From Parafrankia sp. EUN1f (lineage in GTDB: Bacteria > Actinomycetota > Actinomycetes > Frankiales > Frankiaceae), in NCBI RefSeq assembly GCF_000177675.1, contig NZ_ADGX01000046.1:1-61506 (forward strand): a stretch of 61,506 nt of DNA. The letters run 5' to 3'. The notes under the pieces were generated by a model that searched no databases, was not told where the DNA came from, and saw only the letters and a list, made by a program, of their open reading frames with translations. The position numbers were made by a program, and so were the translations under genes. Below, one piece after another: positions 1 to 53,891 of this stretch (position 1 is the stretch's first letter; every line of letters starts with the position of its first letter).

Positions 1-305
1 CCGAGGCTGTGCCCACCGAAGAACCGCGGGGCCAGGCCGAACTCGGCCGCCAGCACCCGGAAGACGGCGATCTCCATGGTGAGCAGGCAGGGCTGCGTGA
101 ACTCGGTGACATGCAGGCGCGGGTCGTCGGTGAAGCAGATCGCGCAGATGTCGATCCCGATGGCGTCCGAGGCCTCCTCGAACGCCGCCCGGGCGGCGGG
201 AAACCGCTGGTGGAAGTCCTGGCCCATGCCCTGGCGCTGCGAGCCCTGCCCGGGGAAGACGACGACGTCAGCCCGCGACAGGGGTGGCCAGGTCTGGTCG
301 GTCAA
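1..305 (-). CDS. Discrete acyltransferase (trans-AT, FabD-like), cut by window edge
   Basis: Only the N-terminal ~101 codons are inside the window. The protein has the FabD/malonyltransferase opening VVVFPGQGSQRQGMG near residue 15 and reaches the nucleophile elbow GGHSLG, whose Ser codon is at 6-8, just before the edge. A stand-alone acyltransferase loads malonyl-CoA onto carrier proteins in trans. The preceding PKS C has four carrier-protein domains and no AT, so this gene is the obvious supplier. The start is a TTG at 305-303 that overlaps the PKS C stop (TTGA), which indicates translational coupling. The other frames hit stops early. Whether the full gene is a single AT, a tandem AT or an AT-ER fusion cannot be seen. 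The fold is clear; malonyl specificity is inferred. Confidence 0.85.
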   Translation of the reverse strand, partial: MTDQTWPPLSRADVVVFPGQGSQRQGMGQDFHQRFPAARAAFEEASDAIGIDICAICFTDDPRLHVTEFTQPCLLTMEIAVFRVLAAEFGLAPRFFGGHSL

Positions 306-3300
306 CGCCCCTCCTCCGCCAGGGCGGGGCGACGGGCCGGGGCGGGACGATTCGGCGGTGGGATGTAGCCGACGTCCGCGCAGTGCTCCAGATAGCGGGT
401 GACCAGGTCACCGATCGTGGGGCAGTTGATGCCCGCCGCACCCAGCAGGTTCCGGGTGTAGGTGGAGTCGGCGTAGGTGCTGCGGTCGTAGTGCTCGGGC
501 CCCCAGGTCTCGACGCCGTACTTCACCATCTCGATCATCTGGCTGGCATAGGGTTCGGCGGTCCCGTTCGCGGTCCCGTTCGCGGAGCCGTTGGTGCTGG
601 CACCGGGTCGGAAGAGCGCCTCGACGGCATGCCGGTGGTACTCGTCCACGCTCAGCGGCGCGATGTCGTACCCGTGCTCGCGGATCATCCGGTAGACCTC
701 GCCCAGGCTGCAGATGTCCGGGTTCGTCAGGTGGTAGGTCTCGCGGTAGCTGGGCCGGCGCAGCGCCAGGTGCAGCAGACCGGTGCTGACGTAGTCCACC
801 GGCGAGATGTCCCAGTATGTCGACGCGTCCAGGTAATAGCCGGTGTCGACGGCCGTCCTGATCAGGTCGTAGTAGACGCCCTTGACCGTCACTTCGCGGA
901 ACGGATAACGCCCGGTGTCGCCGGTGCCCATGATGTTGCCCGGCCGGAAGATGTTCCATACCAGGCCCCGCTCCGAGGCAGCCCGGATCAGTTTCTCCGC
1001 GTGGTATTTCGTCTCCTGGTACGGCAGGTGGTCGTAGCCCTGGCCGAGTTCCAGGTCATCCTCGGTGAACGGCCGGTTCGCGTCGAGCTGCCAGTCGCCC
1101 AGCGCGCTGAAGCTGGACACGTGGACGAGATAGCGGTGCCGGGTCCGCAGACTGAAGTCGATGATCCGCTGGACACCGTCGACGTTCACCGCGCTCAGGG
1201 AGTCGTAGAACGTGACCAGTGTGGTCCGCGCCGCCACGTGGATGGTGACGTCCACGTGCGCGGTGAGCTCGTCGAGGGCCGCGGCGCTCAGGCCGAGGTT
1301 GTCCTGGCTGACGTCCCCCAGGACGACCGAGACGCGGTGCGCGAACTCGTCGACCAGCAGCTGCTCCTGGTCGTAGACCTGCAGGAAGTACTGGACACGC
1401 TCCCGCGCGGCCTGTTCGTCCCGGCCGCGCACCAGGCAGGTGATCCGCGCCGAGGTCTCGGTGAGCAGGTCGTACAGCAGCCGTCCGCCGAGCACCCCGG
1501 TGACCCCGGTGACGAACACCGACTCGACGGGAAACGGCTCGGGCCGAATGACCTTCGCCGGGCGCAGCGCCGGTGCGGTGAGGATCCTGGTCATCTCGTC
1601 AGCAGCCGCCCCGCCCACGTCGTTGCCGGCGATGTAGCCGCCGGCGACGACGTGGTCCACGAAGGAGCCGATGGTCGTGCACTCCTCGATCAGCGTTCCG
1701 GGTATGCGCACCCCGTAGTGCTTCATGACACGGTTGAGCATCCGGACGACCACCACCGAGTCGAAGCCGTAGTCGAGGAAGTTCGTGTCCTCGGTGAGCT
1801 CATCGACCGGATAGCGCGTCAGGTCCGCGAAGATCGCCTTGACCTGGACGACCAGATCCTGCCGGACCTCGTCGTCGCCACGCCCGACGATCGGCGTCGG
1901 CGTCGGCGTCCGCCCCTCGGTCAGGGGCGAGGCCGGGTTCCGCACCGGGGTCTGGGCCTGGGTCTGGGCCTGGGAGTGGGGCTGGGCCGGAATCTGGGCC
2001 GGAGCCGGGATCTGGCCCGGGGCCGGAATCCGGTCCGGGGCCGGAATCCGGTCCGGGGCCGGAATCCGGTCCGGGGCTGAGACCTGGGCCGGAGCTGAGA
2101 CCTGTCCCGGGGTTCCGGAGCGGCGGAACTCGTCGCCCTCGACCCAGTGCCGGTCGGCCGCGAACGGGTAGGTCGGCAGGCTGACGACGCGTCCTCGCAG
2201 CGGCGCCCAGATCTGCTCCCAGTCGATGGTCCAGCCCTGCGTCCACAGCTCGGCCAGCCGGTGGGTGTGCCCCGCCTCCCGCAGGGACCGCAGGTAGGCC
2301 CGGTCGGGCTCGCTGTCGCCGCCGTGGTCGACGTGCGCCGCGACGACTCCGGTGCGCACCCGGCCGTCCGGCGTGCCGGCCACGAAGGCCTCGATCGCCT
2401 CAGCCGCCTCCTGATGCGTGCCCGCGACGAGCGCCAGCCGGTGCTCGAAGGATTCCCGACCGACCATCAGCGTCCATGCGATGTCGACGAGGGGATGCCG
2501 CCGGCCCTCCGGGGAGCCGAGGAGCGCGGCCAGCTTCGTGGCCTGTTCACGCAGCCGCTGTGGGTCTCGCGCGGACAGCAGCACCGGCGTCGGCCCCGTC
2601 CACGGCGAGCCGGCCCCGGCCGGGTGCTGGCCGCTCCCGAGGCCGTCGGGGCCGGTCACGGGATCGCCGAGGATGACGTGCGCGTTGGAGCCACCGGCCC
2701 CGAACGAGCTGACCGCGGCGAGGCGCGGCTGCCCGGTGGCGGCACGCGGCCACGGCCGTGCGTCCCGCGCCACGGTGAACGGGCTGCCCGCGAAGTCGAT
2801 GTGGGGATTCGGCGGGTCGGCGTGCAGGGTCGGCGCGATGGTCTCGTGGTGCAGCTGCAGCAGCGTCTTCGCCACCCCGGCCAGACCGGCGGCCGCCTCC
2901 AGGTGACCGATCGCGGACTTGACGGAGCCGATCGCGCAGTAGCCGCGGTCGTCGGTTCCTTCCCGGAAGGCCGCGGTCAGGGCGCTGACCTCGATCGGAT
3001 CGCCGAGTGCCGTGCCGGTGCCGTGCGCCTCCACGTAGCTGAGCGCCCGTGGGTCGACGTCCGCCTTCGCCAGCGCGTCGCGGACGAGGGCCGCCTGGGC
3101 GACCGGGTTGGGCACTGTGAACCCGTTGGTCCGGCCGTCCTGGTTGACCGCCGTGGCGCGGATCACGCCGTAGATGCGGTCCCCGTCCTCGCGGGCGTCG
3201 GCGAGCGGGCGAAGCAGCAGTGCCACGACGCCCTCCCCGGGCACGTAGCCGTCGCCGCCGGCGCCGAAGGTGCGGCACCGGCCGTCGGTCGACGCCCATC

Positions 3301-6300
3301 GCCCGGACCCCAGCAGCAGGTACTTGCCCGGATGGATCGTGACGTTCACCCCGCCGGCCAGCGCATAGGCGCTCTCGCCCCGGCGCAGGCTCTCGCACGC
3401 CAGGTGCAGCGCGGTGAGCGAGGACGAGCAGGCGGTGTCGACGGCCATCGACGGCCCGTCGAATCCGCAGTGGTAGGAGACTCGGTTCGCCACCGCCCAG
3501 TAGGGGGCGACGGGTGCTCCCGCGACCGCCTGGTACTCCCCATAGGTGACCCCGACGTAGACGGCCGCGTCGCGCTTGCCGCGGCGGCGGGCGGCACGGC
3601 GGATCCGTTCGGGTGGGCTGCCGGCGTCCTCCATCGCGGCCCAGGCGACTTCGAGAAACAGCCGTTGCTGGGGATCCATCAGGTCGGCGTCGCGGGGAGC
3701 GATACCGAAGAACCGGGCGTCGAAGCGGTCGACGTCGTCGAGGAACCCGCCCCAGCGGGCGTAGGTTGCGCCAGGTTCATCCTGGTTGGTACTGAGATAG
3801 CGGGAATGGTCCCAGCGCTGCGGTGGAACCTCGGTGATGCAGTCGCGCCCGGCCAGCAGGTTCGCCCAGAACGCCTGGTTGTCGGCGGCGCCGGGGTAAC
3901 GCCCGGCCATGCCGACGACGGCGATGTCATCCGGCCGGTCCACGATCGCCGGCCGTGCGGGGTGCGCCGCCACGGCCGACCGCATCGGCTCCGGGCGCCG
4001 CGCCACCGTCGCGACGGGCGTCGGCATGACCGGGGCCACCACAGCGGCCCCGGTCGGCGCGGCGGCCCCGGTCGGCGCGGCGCTACCGGTCGGCGCGGCG
4101 CCCGCTCGGGCGTCGCTGCCCGGCAGGTCCGGCTCCGGTGGGACGAACGCCGCGACGAGCTGGTCGGCGCGACTGGTCGCGAGGTGGGCGGCGACGGCGC
4201 TGATGGTCTGGTGCTCGAAGAACAGGGTGGACGGCAACGGTCCGAGCACCGCCTCCAGCCGGGACATCAGCCGCGCGATGAGAACCGACTCGATGCCGTA
4301 GTCCTGCAGGGGAGCCTTCGGCCGGATCCGATCGGCGGGAATGCGGGCCTCGGCTGCCAGCACGTCGAGCAGGAAGCGCTCGGCGAGCACGGTGAGCGCG
4401 GTGACGTCCCGCGGCGGCACAGGCCCGCGCGTGGACGCCGGAACGTCGGCGCCCGCCGCGACAGTGGCCGCTGCCGCTGCCGCGGGAACGGGAGCGGGAA
4501 CGGGAGCGGGAGCGGTACGGTTCCACTCGCCGGACACGATGGTGTCCACCAGCTGGCGCAGCGACGTTCGCACCGTGAGCACACCGGGCGGGAGGTCCAG
4601 CCCCAGTGCCTCGCCGAGGCGGCCGGCGAGGCGGGCCCGGCCGGGGCCGTCGAATCCGAGATCCGCCGACGAGGCCTCCCGGTCGAGCTGGTCACCGGCG
4701 AGCCCCAGCTCGGTCCCGGCCAGGTCCAGCACAACCGGCCAGACCAGCTCGGACGGCACCCCGCCCACCGGCACCGATGCTGGTCCCGGTACCGGCCCGG
4801 ATACCGGCTCCGCCGACTGGGGCCGCAGGCCCGGTGCCGGATGATTCGGGTCGTCGGCGGACGGGATCCAGCACCGTTCGCGGGCGAAGGCGTACCCCGG
4901 CAGGTGCGTCCGACGCGGCAGTGTTCCCTGGTACAGCCCGGCGAAGTCGTATGCGGCGCCGTCGGCCCAGGCCGCGGCGACGACGGCCGGATCAGCCCCG
5001 GATGTCAGCCGCTCGGCCGGCGGTACCGGGCGGTCGGGGTCGACCCGGCCCCGCACACTGTCAGGGCCGGTGCTCCCACGCGCCGCCTGCTCAAGCTCCG
5101 CCCGCAGCCGGGCGACGGACCCGGCCCGGACGGCGAGGCGGTGCTCGTGCGAGGCCCGCCCGAGCTGGGTGGTCGCGGCCAGGTCCGCGAGGGCGACCGA
5201 GGGCGTCCCGTCCAGGAATCGCAGCAGCTGCCGAGCACCGTCCCGGAGGCTGTCCTCGGTAGCCGCCGAGAGCAGGACCAGGGCCGGATCGGACGGCCGC
5301 GCGAACGGCGCGCGGGTCGGCGGGCGGGTCTCGCGATGCTCCTCCAGGACGACGTGGGCGTTGGTCCCGCTGAAGCCGAAGGAGCTGACGACCCCCCGGC
5401 GCGGCTGCGGCGCCTCCCACGGCAGCAGCTCCGTGTTGACGAAGAACGGCGTCGCAGAGAAGTCGATCAGCTCGTTGGCCTGGTCGAAGTGCAGCGAGGG
5501 CGGAATACGCCGCTCACTCAGCGCCAGCAGGACCTTGATCACCCCGGCCACACCGGCCGCGTGGGATGTGTGGCCGATGTTCGACTTGACGGATCCGATC
5601 GGCACCGTCGCGACACCTGGCCGGGGCTCAGGTGTGCCACCGAGCCGGCCGCCTCCAGCGGTCCTGAAGGCGGCGTTGAGTGCCTCGATCTCGATCGGGT
5701 CGCCTAGGCGGGTGCCGGTGCCGTGCGTCTCGACGTAGCCGATGGTCGCCGGATCGATCCCGAACCGGCGGTACACCTCGACCAACAGCTCGGTCTGGGA
5801 CCGCGCGCTCGGCGCGGTGATGCCGTTGGTGCGGCCGTCCTGGTTGACTCCCGTGCCCTTGATCACGCCGTGGATCGGATCGCCGTCGGCGAGCGCCCGG
5901 GTCAGCGGCTTGAGCACCATCACACCGACGCCCTCGCTCATCACGATGCCGTCGGCGGCGGTGTCGAACGGTCGGCAGCGGCCGGTCGGCGACAGCATGC
6001 CGATCGACGAGGTGAGCAGGTGGTGCTCGATCGTGGCGAAGACCGTCACCCCACCGGCCAGGGCGAGCTCGCACTCACCGGCCGCCAGGCTCTGGCAGGC
6101 CTGGTGCAGGGCCACCAGCGAGGACGAACAGGCGGTGTCGACGCCGACGGTCGGGCCGGTGAGATCGAGGTGGTAGGCGACCCGGGCCGGCAGGATCGCC
6201 GGCGAGTTCCCGGTGAACACGTGGGGCGAGCCGAAGTAGCCGCGGTCGCGGATGAGCTGCAGGTAGTCGGACGGCGGAGCTCCGACGAACACCCCGGTCC

Positions 6301-9300
6301 GCGACCGGCGAAGCTGACGGGCGTCCAGGCCGGCGTCCTCGATCGCGTTCCAGCTCTCCTGCAGGAACACCCGCTGCTGCGGGTCCATGAGCTCGGCCTC
6401 GGCGGGGACGATCCCGAAGAACAGCGGGTCGAACCGGTCGACGTCGGCTATCTGGCCGCCCCAGCGCGAGTAGGTCCGGCCCGGCGCCGGCGGCCACGGC
6501 TGGAAATGGTCGGCGAGGTTCCAGCGGCCGGGTGGGATCTCGGTGATCGCGTCGTGGCCGGTGACCAGGTTTCGCCAGAACTCGCGGTAGTCGGCCGCGC
6601 CCGGGTACCGCGCCGACAGGCCGATCACCGCGATGTCGACGACGCCCGTGTCACCACCTCGGCCCGCCGCCACCGACGTGCCGGACGCCGCCACCGACGC
6701 TCGCGGTCCGGCCGCCGCTGCCGGCGATGGCGCGGGAACCGCGGTGGTCGGGTGCGCTGGAACCGGCGGGGGCGAGGGAAACGGCGGGATCGCCGGAACG
6801 GGCGGGGGCGCGGGCGCGGGCGGGGGCGCGGGACGAGCAGTGGCGGGCTCGGCGGCCGCGGGCTCGGGTCGTCCCCCCTGGGCGAGCGCGAACGCCGCGA
6901 GGGCGCGCACCGACGGATGGTCGAAGATGACCGTGGCGTGGATGTCGACGGCCAGGCTGGAGTTGATCCGCTCGACGATCCGCACCGCGAGGATCGAGTC
7001 CACCCCGTACTCGGCGAACGACGCGGTCGGGCGCACCTCGGCCACCGGCACGCCAAGCTCGTCCGCGACGATCTCGGCGACCGCCCGCTCCACGGCGTCG
7101 GGGTCCGGCTGTGCCTGGACGTCCTCCGCCCCGCGCCCCGGCGACGGGGCCCGCCCGGTCACGGCGCCGGCCGGGATCACGAGAAGGCGATGGCTGCTGG
7201 ACGGATCGGCCGTGAGCCCCTCGCCGTAGGCGCGGAGCTCACCGAACCCGGTGCGCAGCGCGCTCGCCCGCCAGCCGTCGACGGAGAGCAGCGGCGAGTC
7301 GGGCAGCCGGTGCTGCGGGTCCCGGTACAGATGCCAGCCGTCCAACAGGCCGATGGTGAAGGCCATGATGTCGTGGTTCTCGACCGCCTCACCGAGAACG
7401 AGCAGGCCGTCGTCGGCGAGCAGCGCACGGACCCGGCGCATCGCCGCGTCGATGTCGGCGACCGCGTGCAGGGCTCCGACCGCCAGCACGACATCGAAGG
7501 CACCGAGCTCGAAGCCCTGGGCGGCCGGGTCGTTCTCGATGTCCAGGACGCGGAACCGGGCGAAGGGGTGTTCAGCGCCGAAGGTTCGCCGGCCGTGCGC
7601 GACGAAGCTGCCACCGATGTCGGTGTAGTGGTATTCCAGCTCCACGCCGGAGGCGGCGAGCGGCGCCAGCGCGGCCAGCACCTGATGCGAGGTTCCGCCG
7701 GTGCCCGCGCCGATCTCCAGGATGCGTACGGGTCGACGGCCCCCGGAACCGGAGCCGGCCGCCGGCCCGGAATCCGCCGTCCTGGCGCGGGCCGCGGCGG
7801 CGACGAACCGGGCCACCAGGGAGCTGTAGAAGTCGTAGACCCGGTTGCCGCGGTAGATCCCCGCCATCAGATCCATGCTGGCGCCGGGGAACAGCACCTC
7901 GGTGGCCGGCCGGACCCCGCGCAGGACGTCGGGGTAGGCGTCGAGGCAGACGTCGAGCAGCCGAAGGAACGGGGCTACCTGGGGGTGGCGCGCCAGCAGC
8001 TCGGCTCGCTGGAGGTCGATGTCGTCGGCCAGCCCGGCCGGATGAAGCAGACCGTCGCGCTCGTACAGCAGGCCGTGCCGGCGCAGCACCCGCAGGCAGA
8101 CGTCCAGGAACCGCTCGAACCGGTCCGGGACGCCGAGCAGCCGGCGCAGCTCAGGCGCGGTCGCGCCGTCGGCGGGCAGGCCCATGCCCCGCAGCCGACG
8201 GAGGACGGCGCCGGCCGCATGGGCGCCGAGCATCGGATAGGCCGCTTCCAGCTCCTCCGCCACGGGCGCGAGGCCGGCCTCGAACGGCTCACATGCGGCG
8301 TCGAGGAACGTCATCACCGCGGGTCTCCTCCTTTGCTCCGGCGCGTGCTCCGGCACGCTGTTCTCCGGGGCGCTGCGCTCCGGGGCGCAGCGCCCCGGCA
8401 CGGGCGAGTCAGGGTGTCCGGTGCGCGCACCGAGGTCGATCCAGAACCGAGAGGTCTCGAACGGGTAGCCGGGCAGCGCGCGGCGCCGACCCGGCCCGCC
8501 GTTGACCGCCGCCCAGTCGACGGCGCCGCCGCCGGCCCAGCGCCGCGCGACGTCCGTCAGGTCGCCGCGGCGGTAGCTGTCGGCGATCACGTCCGTTTCG
8601 CCGCCATCGGCGATGGGCTCACCCGCCCGGCCGGTGAACACCTCGCCCCCACCGCCCGCGCCATCCGCATCACCCGCACCCCCGAGGAAGGCGGACAGCC
8701 GCTCGGCCGCCTCGGCCGGCCCGGACGCGACGAGTGCCAGCCGGGCGGGCAGCGCGGGACGTCCGACCTGCAGGGTGCGGGCGAGATCAGCGAAGGGCAC
8801 GGATCCCGCCGCCGCCACCTGCCGGAGATGACCGGCGATACGGGCGGCGTGCACCCGCAGCCGCTCCTCGGTGGCGGCGGAAAGCACGACGACCTCCGGG
8901 CCCGCCGGCCCGGCCATACCAGGCCCGGCCACATCAGACGCGGCGCCACCAGGCATCACGGTCGGAGCACCGGGATCCGGTTGCTCCGGGTACTCCTCCA
9001 GCACGGCGTGCGCGTTCGTGCCACCCGCTCCGAAGGAGCTCACCCCGGCCCGGCGGGGCAGCTCGCCGTCCGCGCCACGAAGGCGCGGCCAGGCCAGGCG
9101 CTGTTGGGGGACCTCCAGCACCGCGCCGAGGTCCATGTCCGGGTTCGGCACGTCCGAGTGCAACGACGGCACGATCACGCCGTGGCGCAGCTGCAGGAGG
9201 GTCTTCGTGAGGGCCGCCATCCCGGCAGCGGGCTCAAGGTGGCCGATGTTCGACTTCACCGAGCCGAGAGCGCACGGTGCCGCCCGGGGACCGGCCGCGT

Positions 9301-22125: not shown

Positions 22126-22179
22126 ACCGGGGCCTCACCGCACTGTGCTCGACGGATTCGAAGGTCTCGAGGGCGTGCT

Positions 22180-22199
22180 ACGTCCGGCGATCCGGACGT
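22180..22199. other. Hairpin in the PKS A-PKS B intergenic gap
   Basis: A perfect inverted repeat, ACGTCCGG-CGAT-CCGGACGT (8-bp arms, 4-nt loop), lies in the 119-nt gap between the PKS A stop and the PKS B start. This is the only sizeable gap inside the operon. It could act as an RNA structure that tunes read-through, or be a protein-binding site. It is short for a strong terminator. Confidence 0.55.
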
Positions 22200-22244
22200 C
22201 TCGACGGGGAAGGTGGGGGCGGCGACAGGCCGCGGGCGCGGGCG

Positions 22245-25200: not shown

Positions 25201-28200
25201 CCGGCGCCGGCCGCCACAGCCGCGCGCAGCTCGGTCAGGTCGCGATAGCGGGGGACGGCGCCACCGTCGCCCGCGCCCGCGTGCCCGGCGCCACGCACGA
25301 TGCTGTCCACCCGCTCGACGAAGGACGGCGGCAGGTCGCCGACCAGAGCCCAGTCCGTGGCCGCGGCCGCGGCCGGCGAGCCGGTCCGCTCCCGGCCGCG
25401 GACCCAGCCGAGCTGGTAGGAGCCCGGGCCTGCGGACCCCGGCTGGGCGGGTGCGGGGCGCAGGCTGAGTTCGCCGACCCGCAGCACCAGCCGGCCGTCG
25501 CCATCCCGCAGTCGCACCTCGGCTCGATGGGGGCCGGTTCGAGTCAGCCGTACCCGCAGCCTGGTCGCGCCGACGGCGTGCAGGCTCACGCCTCGCCAGG
25601 AGAACGGGAGCAGCGGGCCGTCAGCCGCCGCCGGTGGCGCGGCCGACGGCGTCGCGGAACCAGGACCGGGCGCCGCGGAACCAGGACCCGCCGGCACGTC
25701 GCCGGGGCCGGAGCCGGGTGTGGCGCCGAACGCCGCGAGCAGCAACGGGTGCAGGGCCGCGTCCACCAGCGCCGGGTGCAGCGCGAACCCCGCTCCCGCT
25801 GGTTCGGGTGTGCCCCGATCACCCCCCGGGGACAGCTCCACCTCGGCGTACAGTTCGTCGCCGTCCGCCCACAACGCGGTGAGCCCCCGAAAGGACGGGC
25901 CGTAGCCGTGGCCGCGGTCCGCCAGCAGTTCGTACACGTCGGCGATGTCGACCGGCACCGCCCCGGCCGGCGGCCAGTCCTCCGGGACGTCCGCCGACAG
26001 CGCGCCGACGGGTTCCCGGGCCAGCCAGCCGGTGGCGTGGCACACCCACCCGCCCTCGCCGTCCGATTCGTCCCCCGCGCCGTTCGCCGTGGCGGTCCCG
26101 GTGGCGCCGAGCCCGCCGGCCGCGGCGGCGTCAGCACCGCCCGGGTGGGAGTAGAAGGCGAAGCCGCGCCGCCCGGACTCGTCCGCCGCCGCCAGATGCA
26201 GCTGGACGGCGACACCGGATCCACCCGGCGCCGGCGCTGGCAGGGTCAGCGGTGCGGTCAGCGTCAGTTCGCCCAGCCACGGTGTGCCGGCGGCTCGCCC
26301 CGCGTGCAGGGCGAGGTCGAGGACCGCGGCCGCGGGCAGCACCACCGTGCCGTGCACCTGGTGCTCCCCGAGCCAGGGCTGGGCGGCCGGCGAGAGGCGG
26401 CCGGTCAGGATCCGCCGGCCGTCGGGGAGGCGCACCACCGCGGTGAGCAGCCCATGCCCGGCCGCGTCGAGCCCGCTCTCGGCCACGGCCACCGCGGCGG
26501 GAGCGACCGGCGGCAGCCAGTAGGACGTCCGGGCGAACGCGTAGGTCGGCAGCGGCGTCACGCGCCCGGACGGCCGGGGCAGCACCGCCGACCAGTCGGG
26601 CGTGACACCGTGGGTGTGGGCTTCGGCGAGGGAGAGCATGAACCGGTCGAGGTCGCCCTCGCCCCGGCGCAGGGTTCCGACGGCGGCCGCGATGACCCCG
26701 TGCGCCTCGGACGTCTGCGTGCTGCTGACGGTCAGGACCGGGTGCGGGCTGATCTCGATGAGCACCCGGTGCCCGGCGTCGAGCAGCGCGCGGCAGGCCT
26801 GCTCGTACCGCACCGGTTCGCGCAGGTTGCGGTACCAGTACTCGGCGTCGAGCCCGCGGCCGTCGGCGCGCGCCCCGGTCAGCGTGGAGTAGAAGGGCAC
26901 CGAACCGGTGGACGGCGTGAGGCCTTCCAGCGCGGCGAGCAGCTCGGCGCGGACCTCCGCCACGTACGGACTGTGCGAGGGGTAGTCGACCGGCACGCGG
27001 CGCGCGTGCACCTTCACCCGCTCGCAGGCGGCGAGCAGCGCGTCGAGCGCCTCGTCGGCACCGGAGACGACGGTGCTGGCCGGGCCGTTGACCGCGGCGA
27101 TCGACAGCCGGTCCGGCCAGTCCGCGAGCAGTTCGGTGGTTCGTACCGCCCCGACCTGCAGGGCGACCATGCCGCCCCGGCCGCGTAGCCGGCCCAGCAC
27201 CCGGGCCCGCAGCGCGACGACGCGCGCGGCGTCGGCGAGGCTCAGCACGCCGGCGACGGCCGCGGCGGCGATCTCGCCCTGGGAGTGCCCCACCACCGCG
27301 TCCGGCTCGACCCCGTGCGCCCGCCACAGGGCTGCGAGCGATGTCATCACCGCGAACAGCGCGGGCTGCAGCACCTCCGCCCGGTCCAGCGGTGGCGCGT
27401 CCGCCGAACCGGTGATCACGTCGAGCAGGTTCCAGCCCACATGCGGCCGCAGCACGTCGTCACAGGCCCGCATCTGGTCACGGAAGACCGCCGAGGAGTC
27501 GAGCAGCCCCGCGGCCATGCCCTCCCACTGCGCACCCTGCCCGGGGAAGACGAACGCGATCCGGCCCGCCAGCGCCTGACCTCGCACGACCCGCGGCAGC
27601 CGGCCGGAGATCTCGGTGACCGCGTCGCTCGGCCCATCGGCGGACGCCCCACCCGACGCGTCCGCGACGTCGACGGGCACGAGCCCCGCCAGCCCGGTGA
27701 GGAGCTCCTCCCGGGTGCGGGCGACGACCGCGGCCCTGCTGGGGTGCGCCGTGCGGGTCGTGACCAGCGCGTGTGCGAGCGCCGCCAGCGGCGTCCGCTC
27801 CTCCCGGCGCAGCTGGTCGACAAGGCGGGCGGCTTGGCCGGCCAGATCATCCGGACGGGCCGCGGAGAGCACGAACGGCATCGCCGTGGTCACGGCGGAC
27901 GGACCAACGGCCCCGGCCCCAGACCCGGCCCCAGCCGCTCCAGCGCCGACTCCGGCCGCTCCAGCGCCGGCTCCGGTGGCTCCGGCGGGCTGCGCGGCCA
28001 CGTCCGGGAGCGGATCGCCCTGCTCCACGATGACATGCGCGTTCGTGCCGCTGATGCCGAACGACGACACACCGGCGCGCCGGGGGCGACCGGCCTGCAC
28101 CGGCCAGGCGACTGGTTCCGTCAGCAGCCGGACCGTGCCCGCGGACCAGTCGACGTGCGGGGTCGGCTCGTCCACGCCCAGCGTTGCCGGCAGCAGCTCA

Positions 28201-31200
28201 TGGCGCAGCGCCTGCACCATCTTGATGACCCCGCCGACACCCGCGGCGGCCTGCGGGTGGCCGAGGTTCGACTTGAGCGACCCCAGCCACAGCGGACGTC
28301 CACCGTCTCGCGCACCGTAGGTCGCGATGATCGCGTCGGCCTCGATCGGGTCCCCGAGCGTGGTCCCCGTGCCGTGCGCCTCCACCGCGTCGACATCCGC
28401 CGGGGCAAGCCCGGCGTCGCCCAGGGCCCGACGGATCACCCGCTCCTGCGACGGGCCGTTCGGGGCGGTCAGCCCGTTGCTCGCGCCGTCCTGGTTCATC
28501 GCGCTGCCCCGCAGGACGGCCAGCACCGTGCGACCGTTGCGGCGGGCATCGCTCAGCCGCTCCAGCAGCAGCAGGCCCGCGCCTTCCGCCCAGGCCGTGC
28601 CGTCGGCGGCGGCCGCGAACGGCCGGACGCGGCCGGCGGGCGACAGCCCACGGTGCCGGCTGAACTCGATGAGCAGGCCCGGGGTGGCCAGGACGGCCAC
28701 CCCGCCGGCCAGCGCCAGATCGCACTCGCCGGCCCGCAGCGCCGTGCAGGCCTGGTGCATCGCGACCAGCGACGACGAGCAGGCGGTGTCCACGGTCACC
28801 GCCGGCCCCTCGAGGCCCAGCACGTAGGCCAGCCGGCCGGACACGACACTGCCCGTCGTCCCGGTCAGGACATAGCCGGCGACGTCCCCGCGGGCCTCAT
28901 GCAGACGTGGGCCGTAGTCGGCCGCCATGGCACCGACGAACACCCCGGTCGCCGAGCCACGCAGGCTGGCGGGCACGATCGCCGCTCGTTCCAGGGTCTC
29001 CCAGGCGACCTCCAGCAGCACCCGCTGCTGCGGGTCAAGCGCCAGCGCCTCCCGTGGACTGATGCCGAAGAACTCGGGGTCGAACATGTCCGCGTCGGCG
29101 AGGAACCCGCCACGCCGGGTGTAGGACCTGCCCGGCCGCGGCTCGGGCCCGGGGTGATACCAGTCGAGCCGGTCCCAGCCGCGGACCCGCGGGACCTCCC
29201 CGGTGGCGTCCACGCGGTCGACGACCAGGCGCCACAGGTCCTCGGGCGAGCGGACACCCCCCGGATAGCGGCAACCCATCGACACGATGGCGATCGGATC
29301 CCGCGACAGCGTCTCGTTCCGGCGCCGGCCCCCGTCGCGACGCGGCGTCTCGTCCCGGTGCGTGATCTCAGGTCGGTCGGCCCCGTCGCCCGCCGCGCCC
29401 GGTGCCTGGCGGGACGTCGGCTCAGGGCGCAGCGTCAATCTCAGGTGGCGGGCGAGCCGGCGCGCCGTGGGCTGGTTGAACAGCAGTCCGCTCGGCAGCC
29501 GCAGGCCGGTGGCGGCAGCCAGCCGATCACGCAGGCGGACGGCCGTCAGCGAGTCGAGGCCCAGGTCGTCGAACGGGCGGTCCGGGTCGACGGTGGACGG
29601 GTCGGTGTGCCCGAGGACCCGCGCTGTCTGCTCCCGCACCAGGTCGAGGACGGCCGCGTCCGCCGCCGAGGGCGTGAGGCCGCCCAGCCGGTCGCGAAGC
29701 GCCTCGGCTCCCCTCGCCGGCCCGGCACCCCGCGCACCTGGAACAGCCGGAACAGCCGGAACAGCCGGCGGCCCAGCGACATCCGGCGCGTCTGCGACAT
29801 CCGGCGCGTCTGCGGCATCCGGCAGGACCGGGCCGGCGGACAGATCCGGGACGCCCACCGAATCCGAGAGGTCCGCTGCCCCCGGCGCATTCCGGGAGGC
29901 GGGGATGGCCGCGCCGGGCCAGTGACGCGTGCGCTGGAACGGGTAGGTCGGGAGGGCGACCCGCCGCGCGGTGCCCGGGCCGAAGCAGCCACCCAGATCG
30001 ACCTCCACCCCCGCGACCAGCGCCTCGGCCACCGAGGTCAGCATGCGCCGGGGGCCACCGTCGTCCCGGCGGAGCGACCCGATGACCGTCACCGGACCGA
30101 GCTCGGAACGCTCTGCCTCGTCGTCGGCGGTGTCCCGCACGCTGGCGGCCAGCACCGGATGCGGGCTGACCTCGATGAACACGCGATGCCCCGCGGCGAG
30201 CAACGCCCGCGTGGCGGCCTCGAAGCGAACGGGCTCGCGCAGGTTGCGGTACCAGTAGGCGGTCGTGATGCCGGCGGCGTCGAACCGGTCGCCGCTCACC
30301 GACGAGTAGAACGCGACGCGCCCCGCGCGCCCGGTGGGACGGGCCGAGCCGAGATCGCCGAGATCGGCGAGGATGCGGTCCCGCAGCTGCTCCACCTGCG
30401 GAGAGTGCGAGGCGTAGGTCACCGGCAGCCGCTGCGCGCGGATGCCGTCGGCCTCGCAGGCCGCGACGAGCCGGGTGAGCGCCACGGGGTCGCCCGCGAC
30501 CACACTCGACGCGACACCGTTCGCGGCGGCGACGTGCAGGCCGTCGAACTCTCCGGCCAGGCCGCCGGCCCGTGCTTCGGCCAGCCAGGCCTCGACGGCC
30601 TCGGAGCCCAGCGCGACCGCGACCATCCCGCCCCGGCCGGTCAGCGCACGCAGGGCACGGGCGCGCACCGCCACGATCCGCGCGGCCTGCCGCAGGGAGA
30701 GCACGCCGGCGACGCAGGCCGCGGCGATCTCGCCCTGGGAGTGCCCGACGACAGCGGCGGGGCGCACCCCGTAGGACCGCCACACCTGGGCCAGGGAGAC
30801 CATCACGGCGAACAGCAGCGGCTGGACGACGTCGACCCGCTCCAGGTCGGGGATCTCGTCCCGGCCACGGAGGACCCGCGCGGGCAGCCAGTCGAGATGC
30901 GGTTCGAGCGCGTCGCCGCACGCGGCGAGCTGACGGCGGAAGACCTCGGACGTGTCCAGCAGGCCGGCGAGCATCCCGGCCCACTGCGAGCCCTGCCCGG
31001 GAAAGACGAACACGGTCCCGCCGGACGTCCCGGACGGCTCCCCACCGGCGTCCCCGCCCGCCCACGCGACGTCGCCCGGCTGTCGGGCCTCCCTCGACTG
31101 CCGGACGGCGGTCGCCCGCCCGACAACGGCCGCGGGCCCAGGGGCGTGTCGTGCCAGCGCGTCGAGCTCGCCCAGCAGCTGGACACGGCTGCCACCGAGC

Positions 31201-32936
31201 AGGACCGCCCGGTACTCGAACAACGACCGAGTGGTGGCCAGGGAATGACCGACATCCCGCATCGACCAGTCCGGCCGGCCCGCGAGGTGCTCGCGCAGCC
31301 GGGCGGCCTGCGCCGCCAGCGCCGCCTCGTCCCGGGCCGACAGCACCCAGGGCATCGGGCGGTCCGCGGCGCCCTCCGCGTCTTCCGAACCGTCCGCGCC
31401 TTCCGTACCCTCCGCGAGCTCCGCGCCGGCCGCGGCGGCGTCACGCGTCTCGCGGGCGCTCCCGAGCTCGATGATCTCGGAGTCGTCCTCGAGCCCGGCG
31501 CACGGCTCGGGCCGGGCCATGGGCGCCTCGCCCACCACGACGTGGCAGTTCGTGCCACCCACCCCGAACGAGCTCACCCCGGCCAGCAGCGGTTCCTGGG
31601 GGCGGGGCCACCGTCCGAGCTCGGTGTGCACCCGCAGGTTCAGCTCGTCGAGCGGGATCCGCGGATGGGGGTTGTGGTGGTTCAGGCTCGGCGGCAGCTG
31701 CCGCGCTTCGATACTCAGGATCACCTTCAGCAGGCCGACGAGACCGGCCGCGCCCTCCAGGTGGCCGACGTTGGTCTTGGCCGAACCGACGAGCAGCGGT
31801 CGGCCGGTACGCGGCGACGATCCGAACGCGGCGCCGAGCGCGGCGGCCTCCACCGGGTCGCCCGCCGGGGTGCCCGTCCCGTGCAACTCGACGTACTGGA
31901 CGTCCGCCGGGTCCACCGCCGCCTGCCGGTGGGCCTCGCGCAGCAGCTCCGCCTGCGCCGCGGCGCTCGGGTGCGCCAGCGACGGCCCGCCGCCGTCGTT
32001 GTTGACGGCACCGCCCAGGATCACGCCTCGGATCGGATCGCCGTCGGCCATCGCCTGGGCGAGGGGCTTGAGCAGGACGGCCACCCCGCCCTCGCCGCGC
32101 ACGAAGCCGTCGGCGCCGGCGTCGAAGACCCGACAGCGACCGGTCGGCGACAGGCCGCCGAACGCGGCGGCCGCCAGCGCACGCTCCCGCGCGAGGTTGA
32201 GATGCACCCCGAGGACGAGCGCACAGGTGGACTCGCCACGGCGCAGGTTCTCGGCAGCCATGTGCACGGCCACCAGGGACGATGCCTGCGCCGCGTCCAC
32301 GGTGAGGCTCGGCCCGCGCAGGCCCAGCAGGTAGGAGACCCGGTTGGCGATGACGGCCGGCTGCACGCCGGTGAAGGTGTGTGGGGTGATCCCCTCCGGT
32401 CCGTGGGCGGCCAGTGTCCAGACGAAGTCGGCGCCGACCGCTCCGGCGAGCACGCAGGTCGCGCTTCCGCGCAGCGTGGCGGGCACGATGGCGGCGTCCT
32501 CGATGGCCTCCCACGCCAGCTCCAGGGCCAGCCGCTGTTGCGGATCCATCACAGCGGCCTCGCGCGGGGAGATCCCGAAGAAGGACGCGTCGAAGCGGTC
32601 GACATCGGTCAGGAACGCCCCATGGCGCAGCGGGCTGCCCGCGGGCGGCAGGAACTGCCCATCGGAGCCGGCCCCAGCCCTGGGCCCGGCCTGATCGTCG
32701 GGGGTGGTTCCGGTCCAACGCCACGCCGGCATCTCACCGACGCCGCTGGCACCGTCGCGCAGCAATCGCCAGAAGGCGTCCGGCGTCGCCGCGCCAGGAA
32801 GCCGGCAGGCCACGCCGATCACGGCGATGCCGTCCTGCGGCGGCGCACCGTCCCGGGTCCCGTTTCTCCTGGGCGAGCCGAACCTTCCCATGGACGAACC
32901 GGGTATTCCCCTGGGCGAACTGGACACCACGGTCAC
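22245..32936 (-). CDS. Cis-AT modular polyketide synthase (PKS A): KSQ-AT-ACP loading / KS-AT-DH-ER-KR-ACP
   Basis: 3,563 residues. The GTG start at 32936 overlaps the thioesterase stop (GTGA). The loading KS has Gln217 in place of Cys (VDAAQASSL, codon CAG at 32288-32286), the KSQ signature of a decarboxylating starter module. Its AT has GHSQGE near 729 and YASH at 841-844 (methylmalonyl), so propionate is the likely starter. ACP0 Ser1129. Module 1: KS (Cys1386); AT with GHSQGE and the variant motif YPSH at 1985-1988; DH (HQVHGTVVLP from His2192, Asp2392 in DAALH); ER (AGVNFHDL near 2779, GGVGLAA near 2890); KR (TGGTGRLGG near 3073, Tyr3246, LSD instead of LDD); ACP (Ser3433). This module should fully reduce its beta-carbon. 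A DPADRA-rich linker and a C-terminal docking helix (EELFSIIDREL) follow, suited to the PKS B N-terminus. Confidence 0.95.
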   Translation of the reverse strand: MTVVSSSPRGIPGSSMGRFGSPRRNGTRDGAPPQDGIAVIGVACRLPGAATPDAFWRLLRDGASGVGEMPAWRWTGTTPDDQAGPRAGAGSDGQFLPPAGSPLRHGAFLTDVDRFDASFFGISPREAAVMDPQQRLALELAWEAIEDAAIVPATLRGSATCVLAGAVGADFVWTLAAHGPEGITPHTFTGVQPAVIANRVSYLLGLRGPSLTVDAAQASSLVAVHMAAENLRRGESTCALVLGVHLNLARERALAAAAFGGLSPTGRCRVFDAGADGFVRGEGGVAVLLKPLAQAMADGDPIRGVILGGAVNNDGGGPSLAHPSAAAQAELLREAHRQAAVDPADVQYVELHGTGTPAGDPVEAAALGAAFGSSPRTGRPLLVGSAKTNVGHLEGAAGLVGLLKVILSIEARQLPPSLNHHNPHPRIPLDELNLRVHTELGRWPRPQEPLLAGVSSFGVGGTNCHVVVGEAPMARPEPCAGLEDDSEIIELGSARETRDAAAAGAELAEGTEGADGSEDAEGAADRPMPWVLSARDEAALAAQAARLREHLAGRPDWSMRDVGHSLATTRSLFEYRAVLLGGSRVQLLGELDALARHAPGPAAVVGRATAVRQSREARQPGDVAWAGGDAGGEPSGTSGGTVFVFPGQGSQWAGMLAGLLDTSEVFRRQLAACGDALEPHLDWLPARVLRGRDEIPDLERVDVVQPLLFAVMVSLAQVWRSYGVRPAAVVGHSQGEIAAACVAGVLSLRQAARIVAVRARALRALTGRGGMVAVALGSEAVEAWLAEARAGGLAGEFDGLHVAAANGVASSVVAGDPVALTRLVAACEADGIRAQRLPVTYASHSPQVEQLRDRILADLGDLGSARPTGRAGRVAFYSSVSGDRFDAAGITTAYWYRNLREPVRFEAATRALLAAGHRVFIEVSPHPVLAASVRDTADDEAERSELGPVTVIGSLRRDDGGPRRMLTSVAEALVAGVEVDLGGCFGPGTARRVALPTYPFQRTRHWPGAAIPASRNAPGAADLSDSVGVPDLSAGPVLPDAADAPDVADAPDVAGPPAVPAVPAVPGARGAGPARGAEALRDRLGGLTPSAADAAVLDLVREQTARVLGHTDPSTVDPDRPFDDLGLDSLTAVRLRDRLAAATGLRLPSGLLFNQPTARRLARHLRLTLRPEPTSRQAPGAAGDGADRPEITHRDETPRRDGGRRRNETLSRDPIAIVSMGCRYPGGVRSPEDLWRLVVDRVDATGEVPRVRGWDRLDWYHPGPEPRPGRSYTRRGGFLADADMFDPEFFGISPREALALDPQQRVLLEVAWETLERAAIVPASLRGSATGVFVGAMAADYGPRLHEARGDVAGYVLTGTTGSVVSGRLAYVLGLEGPAVTVDTACSSSLVAMHQACTALRAGECDLALAGGVAVLATPGLLIEFSRHRGLSPAGRVRPFAAAADGTAWAEGAGLLLLERLSDARRNGRTVLAVLRGSAMNQDGASNGLTAPNGPSQERVIRRALGDAGLAPADVDAVEAHGTGTTLGDPIEADAIIATYGARDGGRPLWLGSLKSNLGHPQAAAGVGGVIKMVQALRHELLPATLGVDEPTPHVDWSAGTVRLLTEPVAWPVQAGRPRRAGVSSFGISGTNAHVIVEQGDPLPDVAAQPAGATGAGAGAAGVGAGAAGAGSGAGAVGPSAVTTAMPFVLSAARPDDLAGQAARLVDQLRREERTPLAALAHALVTTRTAHPSRAAVVARTREELLTGLAGLVPVDVADASGGASADGPSDAVTEISGRLPRVVRGQALAGRIAFVFPGQGAQWEGMAAGLLDSSAVFRDQMRACDDVLRPHVGWNLLDVITGSADAPPLDRAEVLQPALFAVMTSLAALWRAHGVEPDAVVGHSQGEIAAAAVAGVLSLADAARVVALRARVLGRLRGRGGMVALQVGAVRTTELLADWPDRLSIAAVNGPASTVVSGADEALDALLAACERVKVHARRVPVDYPSHSPYVAEVRAELLAALEGLTPSTGSVPFYSTLTGARADGRGLDAEYWYRNLREPVRYEQACRALLDAGHRVLIEISPHPVLTVSSTQTSEAHGVIAAAVGTLRRGEGDLDRFMLSLAEAHTHGVTPDWSAVLPRPSGRVTPLPTYAFARTSYWLPPVAPAAVAVAESGLDAAGHGLLTAVVRLPDGRRILTGRLSPAAQPWLGEHQVHGTVVLPAAAVLDLALHAGRAAGTPWLGELTLTAPLTLPAPAPGGSGVAVQLHLAAADESGRRGFAFYSHPGGADAAAAGGLGATGTATANGAGDESDGEGGWVCHATGWLAREPVGALSADVPEDWPPAGAVPVDIADVYELLADRGHGYGPSFRGLTALWADGDELYAEVELSPGGDRGTPEPAGAGFALHPALVDAALHPLLLAAFGATPGSGPGDVPAGPGSAAPGPGSATPSAAPPAAADGPLLPFSWRGVSLHAVGATRLRVRLTRTGPHRAEVRLRDGDGRLVLRVGELSLRPAPAQPGSAGPGSYQLGWVRGRERTGSPAAAAATDWALVGDLPPSFVERVDSIVRGAGHAGAGDGGAVPRYRDLTELRAAVAAGAGAPSVVFHPAPVAEPDRVPDPAAPVEAVHRATGAAVDLLQRWLLDETFADNRLVLVTRGAVQAGDADRPASLAGAAVWGLVRSAQTENPRRLALLDLDVGDRPPPAEALTAAGGGAEPQLAVRAGEMVVPRLAGPTGDGSAGGGPAGGGPADGWSAGGGLVLPPGDGWRVDLTSRGSLDNLAVVAGDADRRPLAAGEVRIAVRAAGVNFHDLVLALAMVDDGGGIGLEGAGVVTEVGPGVPGIRPGDRVMGLFPAAFGPVAVADHRLLTPVPDSWTFTEAATVPAAFLTAYYGLRELAGLRAGQRVLIHAATGGVGLAAMQLARLAGAEVFATASRAKLDVLRAAGLDERHVADSRGTDFDQQVLAATDGRGVDVVLNSLARQRVDAGLRLLPRGGWFVELGKTDLRDPAQVAREYPGVSYQAFDVTTDPGPDHTARMLAALAASFADGSLRPLALTAYPMSRAGEAFRTLSLARHVGKLVLVPPRRLDPDGTVLITGGTGRLGGLVARRLVTRHGARNLLLASRRGVTGPDGVTGSDGVTGLDGVTGADGVTGADGAAGTGGLVDELRRLGAQVTVVAVDVSDRAGVAAVLSAIPPERPLTAVVHAAGVLSDAPVSALTSEQLEEVLRPKIDAAWHLHELTRDRDPAAFVLFSSIAGLLGNAGQGNYAAANAALDALAGNRRHGGLPAVSLAWGLWETSSGMTGQLRRADLDRMARTGLVPLPTDQALRLFDEALTTDRAVVVPARLDQAALRRATASALPAVLRDLARATEPPRVVADQAAAGGADGRGGPGAPGSLGGSRDSIRGRLAGLPEPLRKRQLLDLVRTHGAAILSLPGPGAIGSDRTFRELGVDSLTAVELRNRMSEAIGLPLPATLVFDHPTPAALADRLLADLFPPSDRSPQPTDPAPDPADRADRADPADRADRVDPADRADPADRADPADLDISGVDPTAPDAEDVERRLALASAEELFSIIDRELRVPGG
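22371..22451 (-). repeat. 18-bp tandem repeat before the PKS A docking domain
   Basis: Copies of GTCTGCCGGGTCCGCTCG at 22371, 22389 and 22407 (one mismatch), then a half unit and a further degenerate copy. They encode Asp/Pro/Ala/Arg hexapeptides (DPADRA type) linking the last ACP to the docking helix. Confidence 0.9.
23545..23625 (-). repeat. 18-bp tandem repeat inside the PKS A ketoreductase
   Basis: Four consecutive 18-nt units beginning GTCACGCCGTCA, plus a partial fifth. They encode DGVTGx hexapeptides placed directly after the RRG of the NADPH-binding region (about residues 3104-3136). They extend a loop in a catalytic domain rather than an inter-domain linker. All catalytic KR motifs flank it intact. 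Confidence 0.92.
29778..29813 (-). repeat. 18-bp tandem repeat, two perfect copies, PKS A
   Basis: GACATCCGGCGCGTCTGC is repeated twice, with a degenerate third copy downstream. It encodes ADAPDV hexapeptides in the linker between the loading AT and ACP0. Confidence 0.88.
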
Positions 32937-33697
32937 TCCAACCTGCCGGCCAGGCGCTCGGCCACTGCGGCGAGCAGTGCCGGCCGGTCAGAATTCAGGT
33001 AAAAATGGTCACCGGGAAAGGTACGGACCTCGACGGTCGTGGGCAGCAGAGCCCGCCACGCCCGCAACTGCGTGGTATTCACGCTGGCGTCCATCCGACC
33101 GCCGTAGATATGGACGGGGCATCCCGGAGGATCTCCCGAGCGATGTCGATACGTCTCGAAAAGCTCGAAATCGGCCCGCAACGCCGGCAGAAAGAGGCGC
33201 ATTGTCTCGTGGTCGGCCAGCAGGAGCTCCGGCGTACCGCCGTGGCCCCGCAGTTCGTCGATGAACTCGGTGTCGGGCAGGGCCGCGATCTCCCTACGCC
33301 GACGGGGCAGATGCGGCGCGGCGGCGGCGCTGAGGAAGAGCAGGGCCGGTTCGGGCCCGCCCTCGGCTCGCAGCCGACGGGCGACCTCGTAGGCGACGAG
33401 CGCCCCCAGGCTGTGACCGAAGAAGGCGAACGGCTCGTCCAGGCCGGGCCGCAGGCCGGCGACGACCGCGTCCACCATGGCGTCCATCCTGCGGATCGCC
33501 GGCTCCCGGCGGCGCTGCCGGCGGCCGGGCGGTTCCACCGCGCAGACCTGCACCTGCGCACCGAGCTCCGCCTGCCAGCCGAGGTAGGACGCGGCGCTGC
33601 CGCCCGCGAAGGGAAAGCAGTACAGCCGTATCCGCGCACCCGTGACGCGGCCGCGATGAATCCACGGGTTCCTCGGGAGCGCCCGGTCCGCCGGCAC
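32933..33697 (-). CDS. Type II thioesterase (alpha/beta hydrolase)
   Basis: Stand-alone thioesterase at the head of the PKS operon. It most likely removes aberrant or stalled acyl groups from carrier proteins, and it is not needed for release because PKS C ends in a reductase. Visible motifs: RLYCFPFAGGSAASY at the start of the fold, nucleophile elbow FFGHSLGALVAYE (Ser codon near 33410), a distal Asp in YGGRMDA, and GDHFYL carrying the catalytic His near the C-terminus. The frame stays open to 34018, but residues upstream of about NPWIHRG are Gly/Pro/Arg-rich without family resemblance. I chose the GTG at 33697, which gives 254 aa, the usual size. No clear ribosome binding site supports it, so the start is uncertain. 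The stop overlaps the PKS A GTG. Confidence 0.85.
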   Translation of the reverse strand: MPADRALPRNPWIHRGRVTGARIRLYCFPFAGGSAASYLGWQAELGAQVQVCAVEPPGRRQRRREPAIRRMDAMVDAVVAGLRPGLDEPFAFFGHSLGALVAYEVARRLRAEGGPEPALLFLSAAAAPHLPRRRREIAALPDTEFIDELRGHGGTPELLLADHETMRLFLPALRADFELFETYRHRSGDPPGCPVHIYGGRMDASVNTTQLRAWRALLPTTVEVRTFPGDHFYLNSDRPALLAAVAERLAGRLE

Positions 33698-33904
33698 GTC
33701 CGAACCAGGCGTCGCCCCCGCGCCGTCGCCGACATCCGCGCCACCGGCACCGGGACGATCAGGGACGGCGGCAGCGGCACCGGAGCCGTCGGCGGGTGGG
33801 CGACAGGGCCCTGCCAAGGGATTCTCCGATCCCGATAACCCGCCCCGGCCGGGCACGCGCGTCGTCACCCGGCAGACGATAGGAATCCTCGTTGACCGCT
33901 CGGA

Positions 33905-33948
33905 ACCCCTAAAACCGACGCACCCCTGACGCGTCCGATGACCCCTAA
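33905..33948. promoter_or_regulatory. Repeated ACCCCTAA boxes (TTAGGGGT on the PKS strand)
   Basis: ACCCCTAA occurs exactly at 33905-33912 and 33941-33948, with ACCCCTGA at 33922-33929 between them (spacings 17 and 19 nt). They lie about 210-250 nt upstream of the proposed thioesterase start and read TTAGGGGT in the direction of the PKS operon. Clustered identical octamers suggest an activator or repressor array. No regulator gene for it is visible in the window. Confidence 0.45.
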
Positions 33949-34045
33949 TCAGAGGGCCGAGGTCGACATCCGGACCAGCACGCCCCGGAAACCCCCGCCC
34001 ACCTGCCCAATCCGACACCGCCGGGCAGGCGGGTGGGTCCGGCGC

Positions 34046-34068
34046 CCCCTACCGGAACCTTGTAGGGG
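34046..34068. promoter_or_regulatory. Inverted repeat CCCCTAC-N9-GTAGGGG
   Basis: Perfect 7-bp arms at 34046-34052 and 34062-34068 in the divergent region. The arms share the CCCCTA core of the ACCCCTAA boxes nearby, so the same protein may bind both. It could serve nifJ, the PKS operon, or both. Confidence 0.45.
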
Positions 34069-34414
34069 TCCGGATTCTTCACTACCTGAACGAGGCGGAC
34101 GACCTATGCGATCAGAAATTCGGAGATCTCCCCGCCCATCTTCTCCTCGCCGGGCAGATCTCCTTCTCCGGATCACCATACGATGCCGTCGCATATTCCT
34201 GTGCAGATGCGTCTGGCGGGTTCCGGCGGACCCGGGCGGAACACCGAGCCGGCCCGAGCAGGATGGCGAGCGGGCCTGAGCGGGACGCGGGGCCATCCGG
34301 CAGGTGACGAGAGGTGATCTCCGCCCCGGCGCGGAGCGCGGTCCGTCGGGCGGGCCCGGGGAGATCAGTCCCGGGAATGGGGGCCGATGTCCTCGGCTGA
34401 CGCGGCCCTGGTCC

Positions 34415-43745: not shown

Positions 43746-46028
<2,283 letters not shown>

Positions 46029-53784: not shown

Positions 53785-53891
53785 GGCTCATCCTCGCAGA
53801 GCCTGACAGCGCCGGCGCCGCGGGTCAGCGGTGAACGTCATCGGCAGGCGGCGGACACGAACCGAGCGCCCTTGCGGACGCGTCTGCAGCA

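Follow-up and report, generated by a model that had tools for sequence, protein, structure and literature searches.

Organisation of the polyketide operon

The contig NZ_ADGX01000046.1 of Parafrankia sp. EUN1f carries a modular polyketide synthase (PKS) operon in which synthases with their own acyltransferase (AT) domains are followed by one that has none. The window analysed is the entire contig (C351; 61,506 bases) of a 9.35-Mb draft genome, G000. The operon is a run of minus-strand genes encoding a thioesterase, PKS A, PKS B and PKS C, followed by an AT gene that is cut at base 1, and the window holds seven ketosynthase (KS) domains. Neighbouring genes overlap by a few bases at the thioesterase/PKS A, PKS B/PKS C (TGATG) and PKS C/AT boundaries, which suggests that these three pairs are translationally coupled.

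PKS A (22245..32936, minus strand) consists of a loading module, KSQ-AT-acyl carrier protein (ACP), and the module A1, KS-AT-dehydratase (DH)-enoylreductase (ER)-ketoreductase (KR)-ACP. PKS B (11524..22125, minus strand) has two modules, B1 (KS-AT-KR-ACP, with a methylmalonyl motif in the AT) and B2 (KS-AT-DH-KR-ACP, with a malonyl motif). Pfam, custom profiles and motifs support both assignments. A first-pass annotation had placed an AT in every module of these two proteins, and both Pfam and a custom AT profile bear this out. The loading KSQ carries the motif AAQASSL, in which Gln replaces the catalytic Cys kept in the other six KSs of the window. By the AT motif code assumed here, the loading, A1 and B1 ATs would take methylmalonyl and the B2 AT malonyl. 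The DH of module B2 looks intact. The passage from PKS A to PKS B looks like ordinary class 1 docking, a view supported by a PF08990 match at the PKS B N-terminus (24.7 bits; cut-off 20.9). At the passage from PKS B to PKS C, only a short tail extends beyond the last ACP of PKS B.

PKS C (302..11524, minus strand) is read from Pfam and custom profiles as DH / KS-MT-ACP / KS-ACP*-ACP / KS-ACP-R, where MT is a C-methyltransferase, R a thioester reductase and ACP* an ACP-like domain without the serine. It thus holds three KSs, one MT, four ACP-like domains (the second lacking serine), one reductase and no KR. The start codon had been placed at 11632; the ATG at 11524, within the TGATG overlap with the PKS B stop, is the most likely one instead. 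In order of translation, all on the minus strand, the parts are an N-terminal dehydratase-fold domain (10457..11440), KS1 (8978..10267; Cys and both His motifs present), the MT of module 1 (7193..8155; Pfam and sequence search), KS2 (5363..6649), ACP* (4562..4726; LGFDG at the serine site), KS3 (2663..3955) and the reductase core (785..1513). The last of these matches PF07993 at 165 bits (cut-off 20.1) and has the Y-x-x-x-K motif as YQETK, in agreement with the thioester reductase ending already proposed. The domain order first read from the sequence, including the KSQ loading module and ACP*, also stands on Pfam, custom profiles and motifs. An AT hidden in the linkers of PKS C would have overturned the AT-less reading of its three modules; neither Pfam nor a custom AT profile applied down to 30 bits detected one, linkers included. 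PKS C scores 1753 with the broad NCBIfam model NF045894 (cut-off 1740), a sum over eight stretches that was given no weight.

The gene after PKS C is represented in the window by its 5′ part (1..305, minus strand; Acyl_transf_1, 53.7 bits); the gene starts with TTG at 305, in overlap with the stop codon of PKS C. Its completion to the left of position 1 comes from contig C179 of the same genome, the end of which is identical to the window start over 504 bases and which carries the full gene, the remainder lying at C179:8809-11250. This gene is 97% identical to its counterpart in a second genome, G003, which Pfam and NCBIfam describe as an AT joined to a PfaD-family ER. The first-pass annotation placed a coupled AT gene here; the overlapping TTG start suggests such coupling, but the gene encodes an AT-ER and not an AT alone. 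With AT and PfaD-family ER in one protein it is assigned as an AT-ER didomain, and the choice of malonyl is predicted. The solved structures nearest to the ER part are DfnA and MlnA; those nearest to the AT part are FabD-type and discrete ATs, including DisD. Next to the AT-ER gene lies a gene for a berberine-bridge-type FAD oxidase (BBE-like oxidase), with PF01565 and PF08031 in the G003 copy and a copy on C179 as well. The N-terminus of the oxidase appears twin-arginine-like when read by eye.

At the other end of the operon, a discrete thioesterase (32933..33781, minus strand; PF00975, 184 bits) precedes PKS A; its start codon is unsettled, so that its end is given as about 33781. It is presumably a type II, editing enzyme, as had been supposed for the only thioesterase of the operon.

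Descent and conservation of the hybrid line

The descent of PKS C was examined through KS trees that combined same-genus KSs with KSs from actinobacterial AT-less clusters found by means of the MT domain. There were 75 KSs of more than 380 residues; a quick tree has 67 rows, as 8 KSs whose context could not be read were excluded, and a careful tree of 66 rows also omitted the long branch G280_515. Rows were labelled “trans” where no AT follows the KS. In the careful tree, KS1 and KS3 of PKS C belong to a 24-row set in which 20 rows are trans and the other four are from PKS C (100/97); the set that holds KS2 has six rows, four trans and two from PKS C (96/87). The quick tree places three of the four PKS A and PKS B KSs of the window in a 16-row set of 15 cis rows and one trans row (100), and KSQ in a separate cis set of three (98). 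Among solved structures, 7zma and the AT-less 4tkt rank first for KS1 and KS3; KS2 lies nearer the middle, with 7zma, PksL and PksJ followed by PikA1.

Judged by this placement, PKS C is of trans-AT descent and the operon is a true hybrid, not a set of cis modules with lost ATs. It is very improbable that PKS C is a cis-AT protein whose ATs were lost, with a housekeeping or neighbouring AT now doing their work. Such an origin would suit an otherwise cis-AT operon whose discrete thioesterase is of a kind usual in cis-AT systems. However, all three KSs of PKS C fall in otherwise trans-AT sets, the best solved relative of the MT is that of DisA (presumably a trans-AT synthase), and both the AT-ER and the N-terminal DH are features of trans-AT type. 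The proposal that the line switches from cis to trans at one protein boundary within one operon is thus upheld by the domains, the KS trees and the same junction in G003. The trees also contain a KS from an AT-less module, G370_61 (L070, G370:C244), that falls within the cis-AT set. This is another possible cis/trans mixture, so that such mixing is not unique.

G003 carries the whole operon on a 183-kb contig, with the same gene and domain order and high identity. Among same-genus genomes, two of six have the cluster (DH query). When the R domain was used to scan a genome collection, with six exact peptide patterns as seeds, matches at 62-71% came from four named relatives: Streptomyces hainanensis DSM 41900, Streptomyces sp. 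8K308, Micromonospora qiuiae NBRC 106684 and Dactylosporangium aurantiacum NRRL B-8018. The corresponding DH scan, also seeded by six exact patterns, found no relative; because of this seeding, both scans miss relatives. All four named relatives have PKS B module 2 (KS-AT-DH-KR-ACP) and then PKS C with its MT on the same contig. They also have R and a BBE-type gene, which in M. qiuiae and D. aurantiacum lies on the opposite strand. An adjacent AT-ER is present in three of the four, or five of six genomes when the window and G003 are counted. In the two Streptomyces, PKS C is split over two contigs with no detectable overlap, and its continuity there is inferred. PKS A is complete in the window and G003, and partial in Streptomyces sp. 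8K308, where an upstream KS-AT-DH-ER-KR-ACP resembles the PKS A end. The methylmalonyl motif of the B1 AT is as in the window in the three named relatives where it is readable, and the malonyl motif of B2 is found in all four.

Six genomes thus share a cis-AT PKS B joined to a trans-AT PKS C with R, plus the BBE-like oxidase. The arrangement, for which the first-pass annotation gave no matching named cluster, recurs in five genomes besides the window and hence is not unique. Misassembly was considered and is ruled out by the PKS B/PKS C junction lying on one contig each in G003 and the four named genomes. The identities of PKS B and PKS C covary (r 0.70-0.87; 10 pairs from five genomes, G003 left out), which fits, and is in line with, a joint derived from one ancestral fusion.

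Wider searches returned more distant sequences. At the level of the order, an MT query matched 12 of 35 genomes at E<=0.001, only G000 and G003 exceeding 42% identity. In a class sample of 393 genomes, with only the best 3-5 candidates per genome scored, the MT matched 28 genomes at E<=1e-25 (apart from G000 and G003, the other 26 had <=47% identity), the DH three at E<=1e-12, the third being G356 at 42% over a partial match, and R plus ACP two at E<=1e-60. An MT homologue in G016 was rejected as a family member, as it sits in a nonribosomal peptide synthetase (NRPS)/PKS with its own AT.

Within the family, motifs of PKS C are well kept. The catalytic Cys and HGTGT occur in all 18 PKS C KSs of the six genomes (the Cys of D. 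aurantiacum KS2 being read separately), and YQETK is found in the R domains of the window and the four named relatives. The ACP* serine is also missing from the four named relatives (L084, L086, L091, L105). Counting the window and G003 as one lineage, the position is occupied in the five lineages by Gly, Glu, His, Asp and Asp. Between G000 and G003, dN/dS is 0.04-0.13 for KS1-3, ACP*, ACP4 and R, with 0.10 for ACP* itself (76 codons). Since the serine is absent from all five lineages and the domain changes slowly between G000 and G003, the role of ACP* is probably structural.

The junction between PKS B and PKS C

The C-terminal tail of PKS B (11527..11559, minus strand), identified from a tail alignment and a regular expression, is a candidate docking peptide. 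In all five lineages PKS B ends in P-[LQ]-L-Q-L-E-[PL]-[LI]-(S), with a preceding linker that varies in length and sequence; the last 24 residues are the same in G003 and the window. The expression was written after the tails had been inspected, which lessens the weight of its matching 16 of 1775 six-frame open reading frame (ORF) tails (>=200 residues) in the studied loci, all of them at the end of a PKS B; overlapping loci enter this count more than once.

In the same five lineages, PKS C starts with DH-like sequence. The first-pass annotation called this part “DH-like”; a DH does stand at the head of PKS C, and the description is now refined to a predicted dehydratase fold of trans-AT type. 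A structure model of the window domain from a 26-row alignment has pLDDT 76.1 and pTM 0.78; an earlier model from two rows (pLDDT 29.5), with its fold search, was not used. The best match of the model is 5e1v, the monomeric DH of a trans-AT split module (Z 31.9, rmsd 2.2, 266 aligned), followed by 5kku, the N-terminal DH of the difficidin line (Z 30.9); both also head the list in a sequence search. With Z 29.6-30.7, other trans-AT DHs come close to 5kku, which leaves assignment to the N-terminal subtype less than firm.

Because both the tail and the DH are conserved across the family, the two are proposed as a candidate docking pair, in which the tail would be a short peptide resembling a dehydratase docking domain (DHD) and the PKS C DH its receptor. 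According to PMC9113145, N-terminal DHs that have no added docking domain, as in gladiolin, are bound by a DHD, the disordered C-terminus of the KS upstream; the DHD is about 70 residues long and described solely at KS/DH junctions. Like the gladiolin partner in that paper, the PKS C DH lacks an added docking domain, by sequence and in the model; unlike there, the tail here is short and conserved and follows the ACP of a cis-AT protein, whereas a DHD is an extension of about 70 residues on a KS (PMC9113145). Two proteins of the trans-AT cluster of G356 are followed by DH-first proteins, and their ends, SARLDLTFT and FFELEFPTVPEGKK, bear a loose resemblance as tails of alternating hydrophobic residues.

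The DH could be just a catalytic domain, and two observations count against the docking proposal. The His and an acid at the site of the catalytic Asp are kept in all five lineages; the acid is Asp in three of them and Glu in the window/G003 and D. aurantiacum. The dN/dS of the domain between G000 and G003, 0.54, equals that of two ordinary DHs (0.51 and 0.51). For the same two reasons, the idea that the DH is a fossil was weakened. It is a substantial possibility, if somewhat short of an even chance, that the domain acts on the B2 chain as a working dehydratase or double-bond isomerase, with the PKS B tail serving another role; the fold also matches the enoyl-isomerase 4u3v (Z 24.4). However, PKS B module 2 already has an intact-looking DH, and PKS C is without a KR and so makes no beta-hydroxyl of its own. 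In addition, the Q/H of the second motif is V or A in all five lineages, and PKS C carries other residues where the usual YGP motif has GP. A pyran-synthase role was rejected on the predicted chain geometry.

Proposed pathway and significance

It is likely, taken as a whole, that the operon makes a polyketide whose head is reduced and whose tail is not, through docking of the PKS B tail on the PKS C DH, cis-to-trans chain transfer and reductive release. In this scheme, KSQ would decarboxylate methylmalonyl-ACP to give a propionyl starter, after which A1 would add a fully reduced, methyl-branched unit, B1 a methyl-branched hydroxyl unit and B2 an enoyl unit. KS1 of PKS C would then take over the chain from the final ACP of PKS B, with the PKS B tail, bound to the N-terminal DH, holding the two proteins together. 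This DH, of split-module trans-AT type, would be kept as a docking surface, with its own catalysis or none. The discrete AT would load malonyl onto the PKS C ACPs, and KS1 to KS3 would add three unreduced C2 units, the first of them C-methylated. The R domain would release the aldehyde ...CH=CH-CO-CH(CH3)-CO-CH2-CO-CH2-CHO. Saturation of the B2 alkene may fall to the trans-acting ER, and a last oxidation would be carried out by the BBE-like oxidase.

The predicted product is a C-methylated triketo-aldehyde or a resorcylaldehyde derived from it. The keto order and the position of the methyl group would suit ring closure to a benzaldehyde, a C2-C7 aldol giving 2,4-dihydroxy-5-methyl-6-alkenylbenzaldehyde. 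The aldehyde could equally stay open or form a hemiketal or a gamma-pyrone.

Several findings weigh against parts of this scheme. No cyclase or product-template (PT) domain was seen among the operon genes, which counts against an aromatic product. The extender choices depend on the assumed AT motifs, and that of A1, YPSH, is unusual. Some curated models fall short of their NCBIfam cut-offs: TIGR01746 for the reductase (202.1 against 213.35) and, for the AT-ER, pfaD TIGR02814 (402 against 449) and fabD (232 against 261). The NxGH His motif is unmatched in S. hainanensis KS2, and dN/dS between G000 and G003 is higher in MT (0.31) and ACP3 (0.38). An AT-ER match at E<=1e-60 was not found in the D. 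aurantiacum genome, so that the supply of AT and ER differs there.

Fungal non-reducing PKSs with C-MeT and R domains combine non-reducing extension, C-methylation and reductive release. PKS C resembles them in these three respects; unlike them, it is bacterial and modular, not iterative, with no starter-unit acyltransferase (SAT) or PT by Pfam. It is unlikely that the PKS C modules form a non-reducing aromatic synthase of this kind, with the DH fold as a PT-like cyclase. The carbon count and methyl position would fit a resorcylaldehyde, the DH model superposes on the PT of PksA (Z 24.7), and genes for a FAD_binding_3 monooxygenase (L092 7080-8336) and a methyltransferase lie beside the M. qiuiae cluster. 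Against this, the trans-AT DHs match the model better (Z 31.9 and 30.9), the DH-fold domain stands at the far end from the last ACP, PKS C has no Pfam PT match, and the FAD monooxygenase occurs in one locus only. The D. aurantiacum cluster has its own neighbours, a terpene-synthase-like gene (L094 2659-3780) and a methyltransferase gene.

Three TAGGGGTY sites, found by pattern matching, lie upstream of the PKS operon (33904..34070, strand not assigned); the window has four matches in all against 0.90 expected, the fourth at 56339-56346. Three sites occupy the equivalent place 5′ of the G003 operon (L023 256-422; 0.17 expected), and two lie 5′ of the BBE-like gene on C179 (L046 8537-8655; 0.14 expected). 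These positions suggest a candidate binding site of a pathway regulator. The pattern was picked post hoc, after inspection of the sequence, and for this reason co-regulation of the PKS operon and the BBE-like gene is put forward as a suggestion. A 921-codon ORF at C179 2222-4984 is taken as a LuxR-type gene, as its length and place match those of a G003 gene.

The genes to the right of the thioesterase look unrelated to the PKS and of general-metabolism type. Adjoining the operon is a gene for a NifJ-type pyruvate:ferredoxin/flavodoxin oxidoreductase (34304-37957, plus strand), with an ORF of equal length at the same place in G003. On the minus strand there follow a 737-amino acid ORF whose cpn60/TCP-1 chaperonin domain begins only from residue 213 (43746-45959), three consecutive overlapping luciferase-like monooxygenase ORFs (46029-49902), a glyoxalase-like gene (50046-50507) and a gene for a DMFA2_C-type protein (52202-53791). 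A NUDIX gene is also among them.

Each part of the assembly line is known, and so are hybrids. In the reference cis/trans-AT hybrid, the kirromycin line of Streptomyces collinus, the proteins KirAI-KirAV have no AT, and KirAVI, further downstream, is the only cis-AT one (PMC5818483). The present line resembles that PKS/NRPS in combining AT-containing and AT-less PKSs with discrete ATs in one line (PMC5818483). It differs in that the kirromycin order is trans then cis, with NRPS parts, whereas here cis precedes trans, the operon has no NRPS part and release is by R (PMC5818483). The fusion of an AT to a C-terminal ER is likewise a known architecture (PMC11775670), and the AT-ER here is like that of trans-AT lines of PksE and DisD type. 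Unlike in those lines, it accompanies an assembly line whose first modules own their ATs. The discrete thioesterase is of the class that the same paper assigns to cis-AT systems (PMC11775670). A search of open-licence papers found no recognised product or description of a conserved cis-to-trans junction with the PKS C trimodule.

A broader reading is offered tentatively, and the odds are against it. An actinobacterial family may weld cis-AT to trans-AT lines by means of a former split-module DH that docks a short PxLQLEPLS peptide. The junction would feed a non-reducing, C-methylating and reductively released trimodule that ends in a resorcylaldehyde-type group, as a bacterial modular counterpart of the fungal pairs of highly reducing and non-reducing PKSs. 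The crossing from cis to trans is a single protein boundary, kept in Streptomyces, Micromonospora, Dactylosporangium and the genus of the window, and it carries a short candidate docking tag. If the docking proposal is true, the junction would be a natural adapter for the engineering of cis/trans fusions. The conserved terminal trimodule, in turn, predicts a common end group for a family of compounds, to be sought in the named strains.

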